From contig NZ_VFOZ01000001.1 in NCBI RefSeq assembly GCF_006716425.1, positions 5,580,001 through 5,644,000 of the forward strand: a stretch of DNA of 64,000 bases. The letters run 5' to 3'. This DNA comes from Actinoallomurus bryophytorum (GTDB lineage: Bacteria > Actinomycetota > Actinomycetes > Streptosporangiales > Streptosporangiaceae). The first letter of the stretch is position 1, and each line of letters starts with the position of its first letter. The notes under the pieces are model-generated. The model searched no databases and was not told where the DNA came from. It saw nothing but the letters and a program-made list of their open reading frames with translations. The translations under genes were made by a program, and so were the position numbers. This document shows positions 25,942 through 34,302 of this stretch, one piece after another.

Positions 25942-26526
25942 TCAGGAGAAGACGACGTCGGAACAGGAGTAGAAGGCGTTCGTGGTGTCCGCGATGTCCC
26001 AGACCGCGAGGATCAGCTGCCGGCCGTGCCGCGTCGGGAGGGTGCCGCGGTGCGTGACGGGGTTGGGCGGCCGCGAGCCGTTGTAATTCTGCGTCAGGAA
26101 CGGCGTGGACTCCAGCGCCGCGCGGGTGAGCGGCTTGGTCGGGTCGTAGCTCGTCTTGGTGATGAAGTACCGGAACGACGTGGTCGCGTGGATCGCGGTG
26201 AACGTCCAGGTGAAGTTGTACGACGCGCCGCTCGTCATCGAGGCGGCGGGCCACGTGCCGCCACGCGGGTCGTCGAGCTGGCTGAACTCACTGTGGTTCG
26301 CGCTGCAGATGTGACCGTCCGCGGGGCCGGCCGAGGGGAACCCCTTCGGGCCCTCGACGCTCTGCGGTTCGTACTGGATCGAGCCGCAGTTCGCGACCTG
26401 CTGCTGGGCGCAGCGGTAGCTGCGGCTGGGGGGCGACGTCGTGTATCCGTGCGAGAAGGCGGGGGTGCCGGTCGCGAGCGTGAGCCCGGCGGCGGCGATG
26501 ACGGCGAGGGCGAGCTTTCGTTGCAC
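25942..26526 (-). CDS. Lytic polysaccharide monooxygenase, AA10 family (chitin/cellulose active), secreted
   Basis: 194 residues from GTG 26526, with an AAGGAGAG ribosome binding site. The signal peptide ends at AFS, and the mature protein begins with His (HGYTTSPPSRSYRC), the copper-binding N-terminal histidine. The second brace histidine is in WTFTAIHATTSFRYFITK, and the axial aromatic residue is in TNAFYSCSDVVF. Cysteine pairs (YRC, NCG, HIC, YSC) fit the AA10 disulfides. The enzyme oxidatively cleaves crystalline chitin or cellulose. No carbohydrate-binding module is attached. The substrate (chitin or cellulose) is not determined. Confidence 0.93.
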   Translation of the reverse strand: MQRKLALAVIAAAGLTLATGTPAFSHGYTTSPPSRSYRCAQQQVANCGSIQYEPQSVEGPKGFPSAGPADGHICSANHSEFSQLDDPRGGTWPAASMTSGASYNFTWTFTAIHATTSFRYFITKTSYDPTKPLTRAALESTPFLTQNYNGSRPPNPVTHRGTLPTRHGRQLILAVWDIADTTNAFYSCSDVVFS

Positions 26527-26590
26527 GTGACTCTCCTTGGGGGCGGGCGGGGGAGGCCGGTCAGCGCTGGAGTCACCTCACTGTCGTGAA

Positions 26591-26611
26591 TTTACTGGAA
26601 ACCTTCCTAAA
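26591..26611. promoter_or_regulatory. Operator-like inverted repeat upstream of the AA10 gene
   Basis: The core GGAAACCTTCC (26597-26607) is flanked by TTTA (26591-26594) and TAAA (26608-26611), so the symmetry is slightly offset. It is 65 bp upstream of the AA10 start, a likely place for a sugar-responsive regulator. The regulator is unknown. Confidence 0.4.
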
Positions 26612-26666
26612 AGTCAGGTAGCCAGTAGGGGCTGGTGTGTGTCACCTCCGGTGGCCGGAAGCCAGG

Positions 26667-26694
26667 TGGCCCTTGCTTGCGTCTGCGCTAGTCT
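26667..26694 (+). promoter_or_regulatory. Promoter candidate of the leuS leader
   Basis: -10 TAGTCT (26689-26694) with a weak -35 TGGCCC 16 bp upstream; an alternative is TTGCTT (26673-26678) with GGGATA (26696-26701). With the first pair, transcription would start at about 26701, the A of the leader peptide ATG, making the leader leaderless. Confidence 0.45.
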
Positions 26695-26700
26695 TGGGAT

Positions 26701-26736
26701 ATGTGCTCTCGGCTGCTCCTTAGCCGGCCGCGTTGA
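26701..26736 (+). CDS. Leucine leader peptide upstream of leuS
   Basis: An 11-codon frame, [11 protein letters not shown], ends with TGA at 26734. Three consecutive leucine codons, all different (CTG, CTC, CTT), sit at 26713-26721. It lies 104 bp upstream of the leuS ATG, follows a plausible promoter with no leader of its own, and is followed by two hairpins. This is the classic layout of ribosome-mediated attenuation by leucyl-tRNA level. The evidence is layout only; no homologue was compared. Confidence 0.6.
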
Positions 26737-26785
26737 CGTAGGCATCGGTCGACGCGGCAGCCCCTCCTGTGCGAGGGGCCTTCTC
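26727..26785 (+). promoter_or_regulatory. Attenuator hairpins in the leuS leader
   Basis: The first hairpin pairs 26727-26737 with 26748-26758 (11 pairs, one G-U, 10-base loop); its 5' arm contains the stop codon of the leader peptide. The second pairs GCCCCTC (26760-26766) with GAGGGGC (26773-26779) over a 6-base loop and is followed by CTTCTC, a modest intrinsic-terminator tail. A later AGGGGC (26791-26796) could compete for the same GCCCCT arm. Which structure forms in high and low leucine cannot be decided by eye. Confidence 0.5.
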
Positions 26786-26839
26786 ATGCAAGGGGCACAA
26801 TTTCGTGAGCCGAAGCCGTGTGAAATCAGACGAGGAACG

Positions 26840-29305
<2,466 letters not shown>

Positions 29306-29433: not shown

Positions 29434-30132
29434 TCACATCTTGCGGAGCACCGCCACCACGCGGCCGAGGATCGTCGCGTCGTCGCCGGGGATCGGGTCG
29501 TACGCCGGGTTGTGCGGCATCAGCCAGACCTTGTCGTCGCGGCGTTTGAACGTCTTCACCGTCGCCTCGCCGTCGATCATGGCCGCGACGATGTCGCCGT
29601 TCTCGGCCACCGGCTGCTGGCGTACGACGACCCAGTCCCCGTCGGCGATCGCGGCCTCGATCATCGAGTCACCGCTGACGTTGAGGAGGAAGTGCGTGCC
29701 CTCACCGACGAGCTGCTTGGGCAGCGCGAAGACGTCCTCGACGGCCTCTTCGGCCAGGATCGGGCCACCCGCGGCGATACGGCCGACGAGAGGCACGTAC
29801 GTCGGGGCCGGGCGTGTCGCGCTTTCCTGTCCCGCCGCCGTCTCGTACGACTCCGGCTCGGCCGGCAGTCCTGCCGAGCCCGGCATGCGCACGACCACGG
29901 CGCGCGGACGATTGGGGTCGCGCAGGAGGAAGCCCTTGCGCTGAAGCGCCCGCAGTTGATGCGACACGCTGGAGGTGCTGGTAAGTCCGACCGATTCGCC
30001 GATCTCGCGCATCGATGGTGGATAGCCGCGCCTCTGCACGGAGTCGCGGATCACCTCCAGAACCTTGCGCTGGCGTGCCGTCAACCCGCTTTCATCACTC
30101 GGGCCATCAGGCATTTCCCGGACCTTGCTCAT
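29434..30132 (-). CDS. lexA: LexA repressor (SOS response)
   Basis: 232 residues. The N-terminal winged helix-turn-helix spans about 17-75 ([34 protein letters not shown]). The autocleavage site is Ala121-Gly122, and the S24 peptidase dyad is Ser156 (SGDSM) and Lys193 (TVKTF). RecA on single-stranded DNA triggers self-cleavage and lifts repression of DNA-repair genes. Two LexA-box-like sequences lie between this gene and the divergent LysM gene, one over the likely lexA promoter (TTGATC-N17-TAACGT on the minus strand). The order lexA / LysM gene / nrdR / nrdJ is typical of actinobacteria. Confidence 0.97.
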
Positions 30133-30225
30133 GTATGTCTCCGCTGGATGACTGTGTTCCGGTGACGCGCTGTCGCCGGAATTTCGCTCCTGTAGACGGA
30201 CGTTAGCGCCTCGTCGCTAAATGAT

Positions 30226-30239
30226 CAAACACCTGTTCG
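30226..30239. promoter_or_regulatory. LexA box 1
   Basis: CAAACACCTGTTCG differs from the actinobacterial consensus CGAAC-N4-GTTCG at one position. It lies directly upstream of the -35 region inferred for lexA, consistent with autorepression. Confidence 0.7.
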
Positions 30240-30295
30240 AAGATGTCCTGGAAATTTGCCCATGGTCTGCGGTAGAACTCGTACGGGTGTTCGAT

Positions 30296-30309
30296 CGAAA
30301 CTTCGTTCG
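30296..30309. promoter_or_regulatory. LexA box 2
   Basis: CGAAACTTCGTTCG differs from CGAAC-N4-GTTCG at one position. It lies 23 bp upstream of the LysM gene start, so LexA should repress that gene. Confidence 0.7.
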
Positions 30310-30331
30310 ACTCATCAGAGGGGAGATCGAT

Positions 30332-30664
30332 ATGAGCATGTCCGCTCAGGCCCGCCCTTCCGTGCCACTCCGTCTCACTCGACGTGGGCGCATAGCCGTC
30401 GTCTGTACCATCGCTCTGGTCCTTCTCGCCGGCTTCATGGTGGGGGCACGGCACCGGGCCCGCGCCACGTCCGGCGGAGACCAGGGGCCGGCTCCGGTGG
30501 GGGAGTCGGTGATCGTGGGGCCGCACGACACGCTGTGGGGCATCGCGGTGCGTTCCCGTCCGGAGGTCGACCCCCGGATCACCGTTCAGCGCATGATCGA
30601 CCTCAATGCCCTCTCCAGTGCCGTCGTCAACCCGGGGCAGAAGGTCTACATCCCCTCCCGGTGA
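30332..30664 (+). CDS. LysM-domain membrane protein, SOS-induced cell division inhibitor type (ChiZ/DivS-like)
   Basis: 110 residues from ATG 30332, with a GAGGGGAG ribosome binding site; an open frame reaches 30221. A single transmembrane helix at about 21-37 (IAVVCTIALVLLAGFMV) follows a short basic cytosolic tail, and a LysM peptidoglycan-binding domain occupies about 62-110 (VIVGPHDTLWGIAVRSRPEV through VNPGQKVYIPSR). Divergent orientation from lexA with LexA boxes between matches C. glutamicum DivS and M. tuberculosis Rv2719c (ChiZ), which delay division after DNA damage. The role is inferred from this context. Confidence 0.82.
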   Translation: MSMSAQARPSVPLRLTRRGRIAVVCTIALVLLAGFMVGARHRARATSGGDQGPAPVGESVIVGPHDTLWGIAVRSRPEVDPRITVQRMIDLNALSSAVVNPGQKVYIPSR

Positions 30665-30836
30665 GCCCCCGCCTGCTCCCGGCCCCGCCTGTCCCGATGT
30701 CCGTGCGCTCTCGTATCGCCGTGCAGGTGGGGGCGCGACACGCCGACGAACGTCCCCAGGCCCGTGACCTGAGCGGCGTCTTCGCATTCATGTTGCGGAC
30801 GAGGTTGCGGAGGGCATCGCGGAGTCGTACGGTGGA

Positions 30837-30854
30837 CCACAACATCTAGTAGTT
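30837..30854 (+). promoter_or_regulatory. NrdR box candidate 1
   Basis: CCACAACATCTAGTAGTT, a quasi-palindrome (AAC..CTAG..GTT), resembles boxes upstream of actinobacterial nrd operons. It lies about 100 bp upstream of nrdR and 33 bp from the second box, roughly three helical turns. Confidence 0.6.
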
Positions 30855-30869
30855 ACATGGATGTGATTC

Positions 30870-30885
30870 ACCACAGGTTGTGGTG
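30870..30885 (+). promoter_or_regulatory. NrdR box candidate 2
   Basis: ACCACAGGTTGTGGTG, with inverted arms ACCACA and TGTGGT. Paired boxes in phase are how NrdR represses ribonucleotide reductase genes, here probably nrdR-nrdJ itself. Confidence 0.6.
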
Positions 30886-30947
30886 GCGGAGTGAAGTTTG
30901 TGTAATCGGCGTGTAACGACGTGCTGTGGGAGAGGGGTGGCGGGGCC

Positions 30948-31403
30948 ATGCATTGCCCGTTCTGCCGCAATCCGGACAGCAGGGTGATCGACAGCCGCTC
31001 CACCGACGACGGCGCGGCCATCCGGCGGCGCCGGTCGTGTGCCGAGTGCGGGCGGCGCTTCACCACCCAGGAGACGGTGCTGCTGATGGTCGCGAAGCGA
31101 AGCGGCGTCACGGAGCCGTTCTCCCGCGAGAAGATCACCGCTGGGGTACGCCGGGCGTGCCAGGGACGTCCCGTGACAGAGGACGCGCTGGCCCAGCTCG
31201 GACAGCGCGTCGAGGAGGCGATCCGGGCGACCGGAAACGCCGAGATGCCCTCCCACGAGGTGGGGCTGGCCATCCTCGGGCCCCTGCGCGAGCTCGATGA
31301 GGTCGCCTACCTGAGATTCGCCTCCGTCTACCGGGGGTTCGAGTCGATCGACGACTTCGAGAAGGAAATCGAATCTCTGCGCGCGGCTGAACGCGGCCGG
31401 TAA
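30948..31403 (+). CDS. nrdR: Transcriptional repressor NrdR
   Basis: 151 residues from ATG 30948, with GAGGGG upstream. The N-terminal zinc ribbon uses Cys3, Cys6, Cys31 and Cys34 (CPFC and CAEC), followed by the ATP-cone domain ([19 protein letters not shown]), which senses ATP/dATP. NrdR represses ribonucleotide reductase genes when dATP is high. It is immediately followed by nrdJ, its expected target, and preceded by two NrdR-like boxes. A 5-bp hairpin (GGGCC/GGCCC, 31446-31460) lies between the two genes just before the nrdJ ribosome binding site. Confidence 0.96.
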
Positions 31404-31476
31404 CACCCGCTAGCTGCTGCTTGTTATACGAGTTGTCCTGGAGATGGGCCGGTGCGGCCCGAAGAGGGGGAAGGTC

Positions 31477-34302
31477 ATGACGGAAACGGTGAGCGGCCAG
31501 GCACGGCGCGGGAGGAGCGGCCGTAAGGGGCTGAAGATGGAACGCATCTTCACCCGGCCAGGCATTCACCCCTACGACGAGGTTCGGTGGGAGCGCCGCG
31601 ACGTCGTCATGACCAACTGGCGGGACGGCTCGGTCAACTTCGAGCAGCGCGGCGTTGAGTTCCCCGAGTCGTGGTCGGTCAACGCGACCAACATCGTCAC
31701 CTCGAAGTACTTCCGCGGCGCCGTCGGCAGCCCGCAGCGCGAGTGGAGCCTGAAGCAACTGGTCGACCGTGTCGTCGGTGCCTACACCACGACGGGCCGG
31801 GAGCACGGCTACTTCGCCTCCGACGAGGACGCCGAGATCTTCGACCACGAGCTGAAGCACGCCCTGGTCAACCAGGTGTTCAGCTTCAACTCGCCGGTGT
31901 GGTTCAACGTGGGGACGGCCTCGCCGCAGCAGGTCTCGGCGTGCTTCATCCTCGCGGTCGACGACACGATGGAGTCGATCCTCGACTGGTACAAGGAAGA
32001 GGGCGTGATCTTCAAGGGCGGCTCGGGGTCGGGGGTGAACCTCTCCCGCATCCGCTCCAGCAAGGAGCTGCTCTCCTCCGGCGGCACCGCCAGCGGCCCG
32101 GTCTCCTTCATGCGCGGCGCCGACGCGTCCGCCGGGACGATCAAGTCCGGTGGCGCGACGCGCCGGGCCGCCAAGATGGTCGTGCTCGATGTCGATCACC
32201 CCGACATCGAGGAGTTCATCGAGACCAAGTCGCGCGAAGAGGACAAGATCCGCGCCCTGCGTGACGCCGGGTACGACATGGACCTCGGCGGCAAGGACAT
32301 CGTCAGCGTCCAGTACCAGAACGCCAACAACTCGGTACGCGTCTCCGACGAGTTCATGCGCGCGGTCGAGTCCCGCTCCTCCTTCGGCCTGCGCGCCCGC
32401 CTGACCGGCGAGGTGCTCGAGAAGGTCGAGGCCAAGGGCCTGTTCACCAAGATCGCCAAGGCGGCCTGGGAGTGCGCCGACCCCGGCATCCAGTACGACG
32501 ACACGATCAACGACTGGCACACGACACCGGAGACCGGCCGGATCACGGCGAGCAACCCGTGCTCCGAATACATGAGCCTGGACAACTCCTCGTGCAACCT
32601 GGCCAGCCTGAACCTCCTGAAGTTCCTCAATGACGACAACACCTTCGACGTCGCGAGGTTCGTCAAGCTCACCGAGCTGGTCATCACGGCGATGGACATC
32701 TCCATCACGTTCGCCGACTTCCCGACCGAGAAGATCGGTGAGACCACCCGGGCGTACCGCCAGCTCGGCATCGGCTACGCCAACCTCGGCGCGCTGCTGA
32801 TGGCGACCGGCCACGCGTACGACTCCGAGGGCGGCCGCGGCCTCGCCGGCACGATCACCTCGCTGATGACCGGCGTCGCCTACCGCCGCTCCGCCGAGAT
32901 GGCGGCGGTCGTCGGCCCGTACGACGGTTACGCCCGCAACGCCGAGGGCCACAAGCGGGTCATGCGCAAGCACGCCGCGGCCAACGACGAGATCCGCACG
33001 CTCGACGCCATCGACAAGGCCATCCACGTCGAGGCCACGCGCCAGTGGCAGGAGTGCCTCAAGCTCGGCGAGAAGAACGGCTACCGCAACGGCCAGGCGT
33101 CGCTGCTGGCGCCGACCGGGACGATCGGCCTGATGATGGACTGCGACACGACCGGCATCGAGCCGGACCTGGCGCTGGTCAAGTTCAAGAAGCTCGTCGG
33201 CGGCGGGTCGATGCAGATCGTCAACGGCACCGTGCCGCGTGCCCTGAAGAAGCTCGGCTACCAGCCGGAGCAGGCCGAGGCGATCGTGGAGTACATCGCC
33301 GAGCACGGCCACGTCATCGACGCACCCGGCCTCAAGCCGGAGCACTACGACGTCTTCGACTGCGCGATGGGCGAGCGTGCGATCAGCCCGATGGGCCACG
33401 TACGGATGATGGCCGCGGCGCAGCCGTTCCTGTCCGGCGCCATCAGCAAGACCGTGAACGTCCCCGAGAGCGCGACGATCGAGGACATCGAGGAGGTCTA
33501 CCTCCAGGGCTGGAAGCTCGGCCTCAAGGCGCTCGCGATCTACCGCGACAACTGCAAGGTCGGCCAGCCGCTGTCGGTGTCCAAGAAGAACACCGAGGAG
33601 AAGCCGCAGCCCGCCGCGGCTCCTGCCGAGGTCGGCCCGGTGCGCACCCGCCTGCCCAAGCAGCGGCCCGCCACCGTGACGCGGTTCTCCGTCGGCGGCG
33701 CCGAGGGCTACATGACGGCCTCGACGTACCCCGACAACGGTCTCGGCGAGGTCTTCCTCAAGCTCGGCAAGCAGGGCTCCACCCTGGCCGGCGTGATGGA
33801 CGCCTTCTCCATGGCGATCTCCATCAGCCTCCAGTACGGCGTCCCGCTGGAGACCTGGGTGGACAAGTTCACCAACATGCGCTTCGAGCCGGCGGGCATG
33901 ACCGACGACCCGGACATCCGCATGGCGAACTCGATGATGGACTACATCTTCCGCAGGCTCGCCCTGGACCACCTGCCCTACGAGACGCGGGCCGAGCTGG
34001 GCATCTTCTCCGCGGAGGAGCGCGCCGCCCAGGCCTCGGGCCAGGACCCGGCGACCCTGCGCGCCGAGGACGACGTCGAACGGGAGACCCTGGCCCAGTC
34101 GGTGCCGGTCGAGCGCCCGAAGGCGGCGGAGAAGCCCGCCCCGGCCCCGATCGCGGAGGCGCACTCCTCTACGGAGCTGATCGAAAGCCACCAGGGCCGC
34201 ACCGCCGACGCCCCGCTGTGCCTCACCTGCGGCACGAAGATGCGCCCGGCAGGCAGCTGCTACGTCTGCGAGGGCTGCGGCTCCACCAGCGGCTGCAGCT
34301 GA
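31477..34302 (+). CDS. nrdJ: Class II (adenosylcobalamin-dependent) ribonucleoside-diphosphate reductase
   Basis: 941 residues from ATG 31477 (AGAGGGGG upstream). It reduces ribonucleotides to deoxynucleotides using B12 to make the thiyl radical, so needs no oxygen or separate radical subunit. Visible motifs are the active-site loop NPCSEYMSLDNSSCNLASLN, FNSPVWFNVG, and GSGSGVNLSRIRSS in the N-terminal part, and PTGTIGLMMDCDTTGIEPD. A C-terminal zinc-ribbon-like tail, CLTCGTKM...CYVCEGCGS, likely shuttles reducing equivalents. It forms an operon with nrdR and ends at a hairpin terminator. Confidence 0.97.
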   Translation: MTETVSGQARRGRSGRKGLKMERIFTRPGIHPYDEVRWERRDVVMTNWRDGSVNFEQRGVEFPESWSVNATNIVTSKYFRGAVGSPQREWSLKQLVDRVVGAYTTTGREHGYFASDEDAEIFDHELKHALVNQVFSFNSPVWFNVGTASPQQVSACFILAVDDTMESILDWYKEEGVIFKGGSGSGVNLSRIRSSKELLSSGGTASGPVSFMRGADASAGTIKSGGATRRAAKMVVLDVDHPDIEEFIETKSREEDKIRALRDAGYDMDLGGKDIVSVQYQNANNSVRVSDEFMRAVESRSSFGLRARLTGEVLEKVEAKGLFTKIAKAAWECADPGIQYDDTINDWHTTPETGRITASNPCSEYMSLDNSSCNLASLNLLKFLNDDNTFDVARFVKLTELVITAMDISITFADFPTEKIGETTRAYRQLGIGYANLGALLMATGHAYDSEGGRGLAGTITSLMTGVAYRRSAEMAAVVGPYDGYARNAEGHKRVMRKHAAANDEIRTLDAIDKAIHVEATRQWQECLKLGEKNGYRNGQASLLAPTGTIGLMMDCDTTGIEPDLALVKFKKLVGGGSMQIVNGTVPRALKKLGYQPEQAEAIVEYIAEHGHVIDAPGLKPEHYDVFDCAMGERAISPMGHVRMMAAAQPFLSGAISKTVNVPESATIEDIEEVYLQGWKLGLKALAIYRDNCKVGQPLSVSKKNTEEKPQPAAAPAEVGPVRTRLPKQRPATVTRFSVGGAEGYMTASTYPDNGLGEVFLKLGKQGSTLAGVMDAFSMAISISLQYGVPLETWVDKFTNMRFEPAGMTDDPDIRMANSMMDYIFRRLALDHLPYETRAELGIFSAEERAAQASGQDPATLRAEDDVERETLAQSVPVERPKAAEKPAPAPIAEAHSSTELIESHQGRTADAPLCLTCGTKMRPAGSCYVCEGCGSTSGCS

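Follow-up and report, generated by a model that had tools for sequence, protein, structure and literature searches.

The stretch of DNA considered here, hereafter the window, comprises 64,000 nucleotides of the Actinoallomurus bryophytorum genome (contig NZ_VFOZ01000001.1, positions 5,580,001 to 5,644,000), and the element in question is the leader of leuS, the gene for leucine--tRNA ligase (window positions 26840..29305; TIGR00396, 958 bits versus a cut-off of 548, E 4.1e-288). The closest named relatives of the encoded LeuS are those of Actinomadura. All parts of the leader lie on the + strand, as does leuS. The first is a frame of 11 codons and a TGA stop (26701..26736), which reads ATG TGC TCT CGG CTG CTC CTT AGC CGG CCG CGT TGA, with the ATG at 26701 and the stop at 26734-26736; the presumed regulatory Leu codons CTG CTC CTT occupy 26713..26721. 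The stop codon sits inside the 5' arm of a hairpin, P2 (26727..26758; arms 26727-26737 and 26748-26758, 11 bp), and a single unpaired A (26759..26759) separates P2 from a terminator-like hairpin, P3 (26760..26779), with the arms GCCCCTC (26760-26766) and GAGGGGC (26773-26779) and the loop CTGTGC. Directly 3' of P3 follows the pyrimidine tail CTTCTCATG (26780..26788). The frame with its three adjacent Leu codons, the hairpin holding the stop codon and the terminator-like hairpin with its tail are all as described in an earlier sequence-only reading, which proposed attenuation of leuS by charged tRNA-Leu. A -10-like TAGTCT (TANNNT; 26689..26694) has its first base 12 nt 5' of the leader ATG, and no clear -35 hexamer was seen by eye upstream of the leader in the window. 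Leader and terminator together most likely form a switch that responds to the state of leucine charging.

The 142-nt leader is more stable than its own shuffles (z = -2.3), 3 of 200 shuffles being equally good. No Rfam family, T-box included, matches the window at its gathering score or the region 26650-26850 up to E 1, and on seven related loci the sole match up to E 0.1 is Chlorobi-1 with 21.6 bits versus a gathering score of 50. The evidence for the element is comparative. A covariance model, R1, was built from alignment A1, which contains 42 of 47 leuS leaders (L048, L053 and L092 were excluded because their loops are long, L008 and L064 because they nearly duplicate other leaders). A second alignment, A3, holds 100 chosen leuS elements aligned to the model; as these were picked as leuS elements, counts from A3 describe the element and not its frequency. 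In A3, 98.3% of the cells pair, and two-sided changes are present in 13 of 17 pairs, in both P2 and P3. None of 500 shuffles reaches any of five covariation measures, and slid versions score far lower. The alignment is fitted to the model and so favours the model structure; in a MAFFT alignment of 42 leaders two-sided changes are found in 9 of the 17 pairs. A covariation scan listed 45 column pairs, ten of which are P2 or P3 pairs. The column pairs 24-38, 42-134, 162-173 and 128-161 are at least 90% paired, isolated, and build no helix. No third helix is visible among the listed covarying column pairs of A3, and the scan alone cannot exclude one because invariant columns show no covariation.

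Three Leu codons in a row are present in 85 of the 100 aligned leaders and two in 11 more. Each of the three codons varies synonymously, the first being CTG in 68, CTT in 8, CTC in 6 and TTG in 3 (n = 85). The sequence-only reading had named conserved leucine codons and covarying stems in related actinomycetes as a check, and both are found in the 100 leaders. Of the 96 leuS leaders whose model start is ATG or GTG, 73 have TANNNT at -12 and 20 have it at -13. Since it thus precedes the start codon by 12-13 nt in 93 of 96, the transcripts are probably leaderless, a possibility that the sequence-only reading had also raised. Spacing is strict around P2. In 83 of 85 leaders 5 nt separate the last Leu codon from the P2 base, and the P2-P3 junction measures 0-3 nt in 100/100, most often 1 nt (82). 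The P2 loop, by contrast, ranges from 3 to 40 nt, with 34 different lengths. Model-free folding gave P2-P3 gaps of 0 in 81, 1 in 26 and 2 in 2 of 111 leuS rows; one row was unparsable, and L048 has a gap of 19 owing to a branched P2. At least four T are found among the first 8 bases of the tail in 96/100. Position 8 is T in 93 and position 9 is G in 71 of the 99 relatives with a letter there, a pattern that we take to resemble the elemental pause consensus.

An R1 match lies directly upstream of leuS in all eight genomes of the host genus, the own genome included, and two of these (G005 and G007) played no part in building R1; the leader peptide of G005 (L005) is MRSRQLLSRPR. In the class, 166 of 296 genomes match R1 at E <= 0.01, whatever the downstream gene. 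Ninety elements were read, coming from R1-search loci, from stretches picked by family and score, and from the second match in the own genome (L140). One place was read twice (L148 = L225), leaving 89 distinct elements. Downstream of the 90 are leuS (68), cimA (20), ilvB (1) and a contig end (1), as called by tblastn, motif and translation by eye; the motif script left 13 unassigned, which by reading became nine cimA, three leuS and the contig end. The leuS elements are spread over at least 24 family labels of the class (labels matched by hand). A lack of conservation in relatives, which the sequence-only reading had named as fatal to its proposal, is thereby excluded. R1 was also searched at 60 out of 117 leuS loci, and 34 of the 60 match on the leuS side at E <= 0.1. 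As to the synthetase itself, genome G004 of the host genus has two leuS genes of different type (L006, L273), each with its own leader element, and the LeuS of L273 has 38% identity with that of the window over 459 aligned residues. A common leader element precedes two deeply diverged LeuS types in A3 (n = 100), 73 proteins having a 12-residue motif, 15 being SGAGLHVGH-type and 12 not assigned.

Related elements are found before other genes of branched-chain amino acid supply. A second model, R2, built from 20 cimA-type elements, locates two in the own genome. One is before cimA (C1:830335-830434, - strand; L140:1501-1600), with the leader MRCGLLIIGERVG, the gene being identified by TIGR00977 (585.7 bits versus a cut-off of 450). 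The other is before ilvB (C1:853595-853697, - strand; L272:1196-1298), with the frame ...LILVLGQRAS; the best NCBIfam match of that gene is acetolactate synthase, at 700.7 bits for a partial protein and under the cut-off of 881. With leuS, the own genome thus has three elements of a common two-hairpin architecture. At least two adjacent Ile codons are present in 41 of 44 distinct cimA elements (A4 + A5), while of the other three L257 and L274 have only single Ile codons and the frame of L207 could not be placed. The ilvB leaders carry Ile, Val and Leu codons, and one of them, MRTRILVLGKRVG, is identical to S. lividans ilvL as printed in PMC8079986. A related element with the leader ...HLMAIT is found at L278:128-233 and L287:1105-1197. 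The one in L278, whose leader contains just one Ile codon, precedes a threonine ammonia-lyase-like (ilvA-like) gene (E 3.9e-74, partial protein, under the cut-off). Across the class, R2 has a match at E <= 0.01 in 140 of 197 genomes with any downstream gene, leuS elements included. Judged by result listings and excerpts, literature searches showed no published cimA attenuator.

The codons bear on one alternative, according to which they are no sensor and the hairpins set a readthrough that is constitutive or otherwise controlled. It would accommodate the 4/100 aligned leuS leaders with no two adjacent Leu codons in the model frame, and codon mutations in the S. coelicolor ilvB leader are reported to be without effect (cited in PMC1262725). 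Against it, codon identity follows the downstream gene, Leu for leuS and Ile for cimA, and the Leu codons vary synonymously with their distance to P2 fixed, so that this explanation appears unlikely.

The effect of a ribosome on the leader was modelled by masking the P-site codon plus 15 nt in all, an assumed footprint. The masking, antiterminator and distance analyses cover 84 of the 100 A3 sequences, the others being without three Leu codons or an ATG/GTG start, or containing N. With the ribosome on the Leu codons L1, L2 and L3, the mean probability of P2 is 1.000, 0.998 and 0.663, respectively, and at the stop codon it is 0.000, P2 remaining below 0.5 in 84/84. An earlier masking run on 47 sequences gave a like picture, with 0.09 at the stop. 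The folding model thus predicts that translation progress decides P2, and with the assumed footprint a stalled and a terminating ribosome leave different RNA structures, as is expected of an attenuator.

A classical attenuator goes further, as stalling would there give rise to an antiterminator whose pairing takes up bases of the terminator. This was approached by computing the lowest folding cost when the P3 5' arm is restricted to upstream partners. For E. coli trpL the cost is 11.9 kcal/mol without a ribosome, 3.2-4.4 with the ribosome stalled on the Trp codons and 13.5 at the stop, and in the stalled state 5/7 bases of the terminator 5' arm pair upstream; as the cost drops on stalling, the test recovers a classical switch. 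The 84 leuS elements have median costs of 7.8 kcal/mol without a ribosome, 12.7 at L1, 12.4 at L2, 9.5 at L3 and 7.2 at the stop, and those costing at most 5 kcal/mol number 20, 0, 0, 8 and 21, respectively. The corresponding costs in the window are 11.0, 13.6, 13.6, 12.5 and 9.7 kcal/mol. At L1 and L2 a P3-free fold costs at least 7.6 kcal/mol in 84/84, and upstream pairing engages at least four bases of the P3 5' arm in 0/84 at L1 and 3/84 at L2, in contrast to trpL under the equal test. Eight of the ten top-scoring column pairs in the covariation scan belong to P2 and P3 and the other two are poorly paired, which likewise speaks against a competing helix. In favour of the classical mechanism, the label has been published for leuS of S. 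avermitilis and S. coelicolor (PMC1262725), and with the ribosome at L3 the P3-free fold comes within 5 kcal/mol in 8/84 while 13/84 pair at least four arm bases upstream. In all, no base-paired antiterminator sharing bases with the terminator was found at L1 or L2 in the 84 elements, and a classical attenuator is considered quite unlikely here. The mutually exclusive folds that the sequence-only reading could not trace by eye are not supported as base-paired structures, P3 folding either way in the model; its leucine leader peptide and terminator stand, and in the model are joined by a ribosome-dependent P2.

Several particular pairings were also considered and rejected. Two possible antiterminators, one joining the P3 3' arm to the Leu-codon stretch and one joining the leader to the P3 5' arm (in the window, GGCTGC/GCAGCC), are not conserved by eye, and neither was seen among the 45 column pairs. 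A hairpin P1 (26710-26726) forms in the window, yet no P1 helix was seen among the 45. Pairing of the Leu codons with the leuS ribosome site, which would sequester the latter, was considered by eye only and would involve about 5 pairs in the window.

Elements of this kind are known. Attenuators were predicted for leuS of S. avermitilis and S. coelicolor in 2005 (Seliverstov et al., PMC1262725), and S. lividans leuL2 (MRAVRLLLSEPR), described as leaderless and followed by a hairpin and a uridine stretch, appeared in a 2021 list drawn from RNA-seq (PMC8079986). The leuS element thus belongs to a known kind. R1, for which no Streptomyces-labelled record was used, matches elements with exactly MRAVRLLLSEPR upstream of leuS at E about 1e-13 under one family label. 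The genomes carrying them are taken as Streptomyces from the peptide, and the window element is homologous to this Streptomyces leuL2 family. The present analysis adds its wide distribution, the lack of a base-paired antiterminator, the close apposition of P2 and P3 and the leader before cimA. A survey of synthetase attenuators by Lopatovskaya et al. in 2010 reportedly exists and may already list leuS outside Streptomyces. Streptomyces leuS/leuL2 shares with the window the gene, the kind of leader and the terminator, and leaderlessness is a published feature of leuL2 (PMC8079986). The host, however, belongs to another family (Actinomadura-like), and while Streptomyces leuS was published as classical (PMC1262725), the 84 elements without a base-paired antiterminator at L1 and L2 include those with the Streptomyces peptide. 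E. coli trp is similar in its leader peptide with regulated codons, ribosome at the stop codon and intrinsic terminator, but the trpL antiterminator overlaps the terminator, whereas P2 of leuS adjoins P3 without overlap. Corynebacterium ilvBNC likewise has an actinobacterial branched-chain leader peptide, hairpins and a terminator, but there terminator and antiterminator share bases, unlike in the leuS element (PMC11857589, PMC10272879). By its description, the LEU element of leuA resembles the present one in having a leucine-codon leader peptide in actinobacteria (PMC1262725).

On balance, it is reasonably probable that the leuS leader is a ribosome-stalling transcription attenuator with readthrough on stalling, and the signal would then be charged tRNA-Leu itself. 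With Leu-tRNA(Leu) charged, the ribosome would reach the stop codon and cover the P2 5' arm, P3 would form and transcription would end. At low charging it would come to a halt over the Leu codons, its leading edge reaching the P2 base, and P2 would fold. Stalled ribosome, P2 and P3 would then be packed side by side with almost no free RNA, leaving no room for P3 in the exit channel of RNA polymerase, and leuS would be transcribed. Such geometry is suggested because the distances from codon to P2 and from P2 to P3 are fixed while the P2 loop varies. A ribosome on L2 ends at most 1 nt from the P2 base in 82/84, whereas 8-51 nt remain between P3 and a ribosome at the stop. The crowding step alone, exclusion by physical contact instead of competing base pairs, we infer with somewhat less than even confidence.

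A number of observations weigh against attenuation of this kind. R1 recognised no element at 26 of the 60 searched leuS loci; those without a match include Thermobifida, Nocardiopsis, Streptomonospora, Nocardia and Microbacteriaceae, and because of this the element is absent or unrecognised in these taxa. Strict terminator and sigma-70 scans of 26500-26900 gave no match, and the U tract of the window is weak (C T T C T C A T after P3). P3 reaches a probability of 0.5 in 80 of the 84 elements without a ribosome, 83 at each of L1, L2 and L3, and 82 at the stop. The margin of P3 is also greater with a stalled ribosome (median 12.4 kcal/mol at L2) than at the stop (7.2), opposite to what attenuation requires. 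By its architecture, the leader of S. coelicolor ilvB, in which changed regulatory codons reportedly had no effect, appears to be a relative of the leuS element. Finally, two tandem hairpins terminate better than a single one in M. smegmatis (cited in PMC8355165). Together with the larger stalled P3 margin, this last finding would suit a mechanism of opposite sign, in which P2 plus P3 beat P3 alone, stalling or lack of translation lowers leuS and completed translation raises it, but a response of this sign would not serve homeostasis, either for a synthetase or for cimA and ilvB with their matching leader codons, and is very unlikely.

As regards the surroundings, a lytic polysaccharide mono-oxygenase gene (PF03067; window 25942-26526, - strand) adjoins the leader and is divergent from it. 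Window positions 29434-34302 hold lexA on the - strand, followed on the + strand by nrdR and a class II B12-dependent ribonucleotide reductase gene.

The comparative data indicate that the leader before leuS is real and widely kept, and the textbook account, in which two folds compete for the same bases, appears not to fit its design. Tentatively, and with less assurance than for the crowding step, a single attenuator design may serve leucine and isoleucine supply across the actinomycete class (leuS, cimA, ilvB and perhaps ilvA). In it, a hairpin at the edge of the stalled ribosome would loop out a variable stretch and dock the ribosome against the terminator, and physical crowding at RNA polymerase, not competition between base pairs, would bring about readthrough. 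The cimA element would then be an isoleucine readout on the citramalate route, and crowding, if true, would give a stalled ribosome a second means of overriding a terminator.
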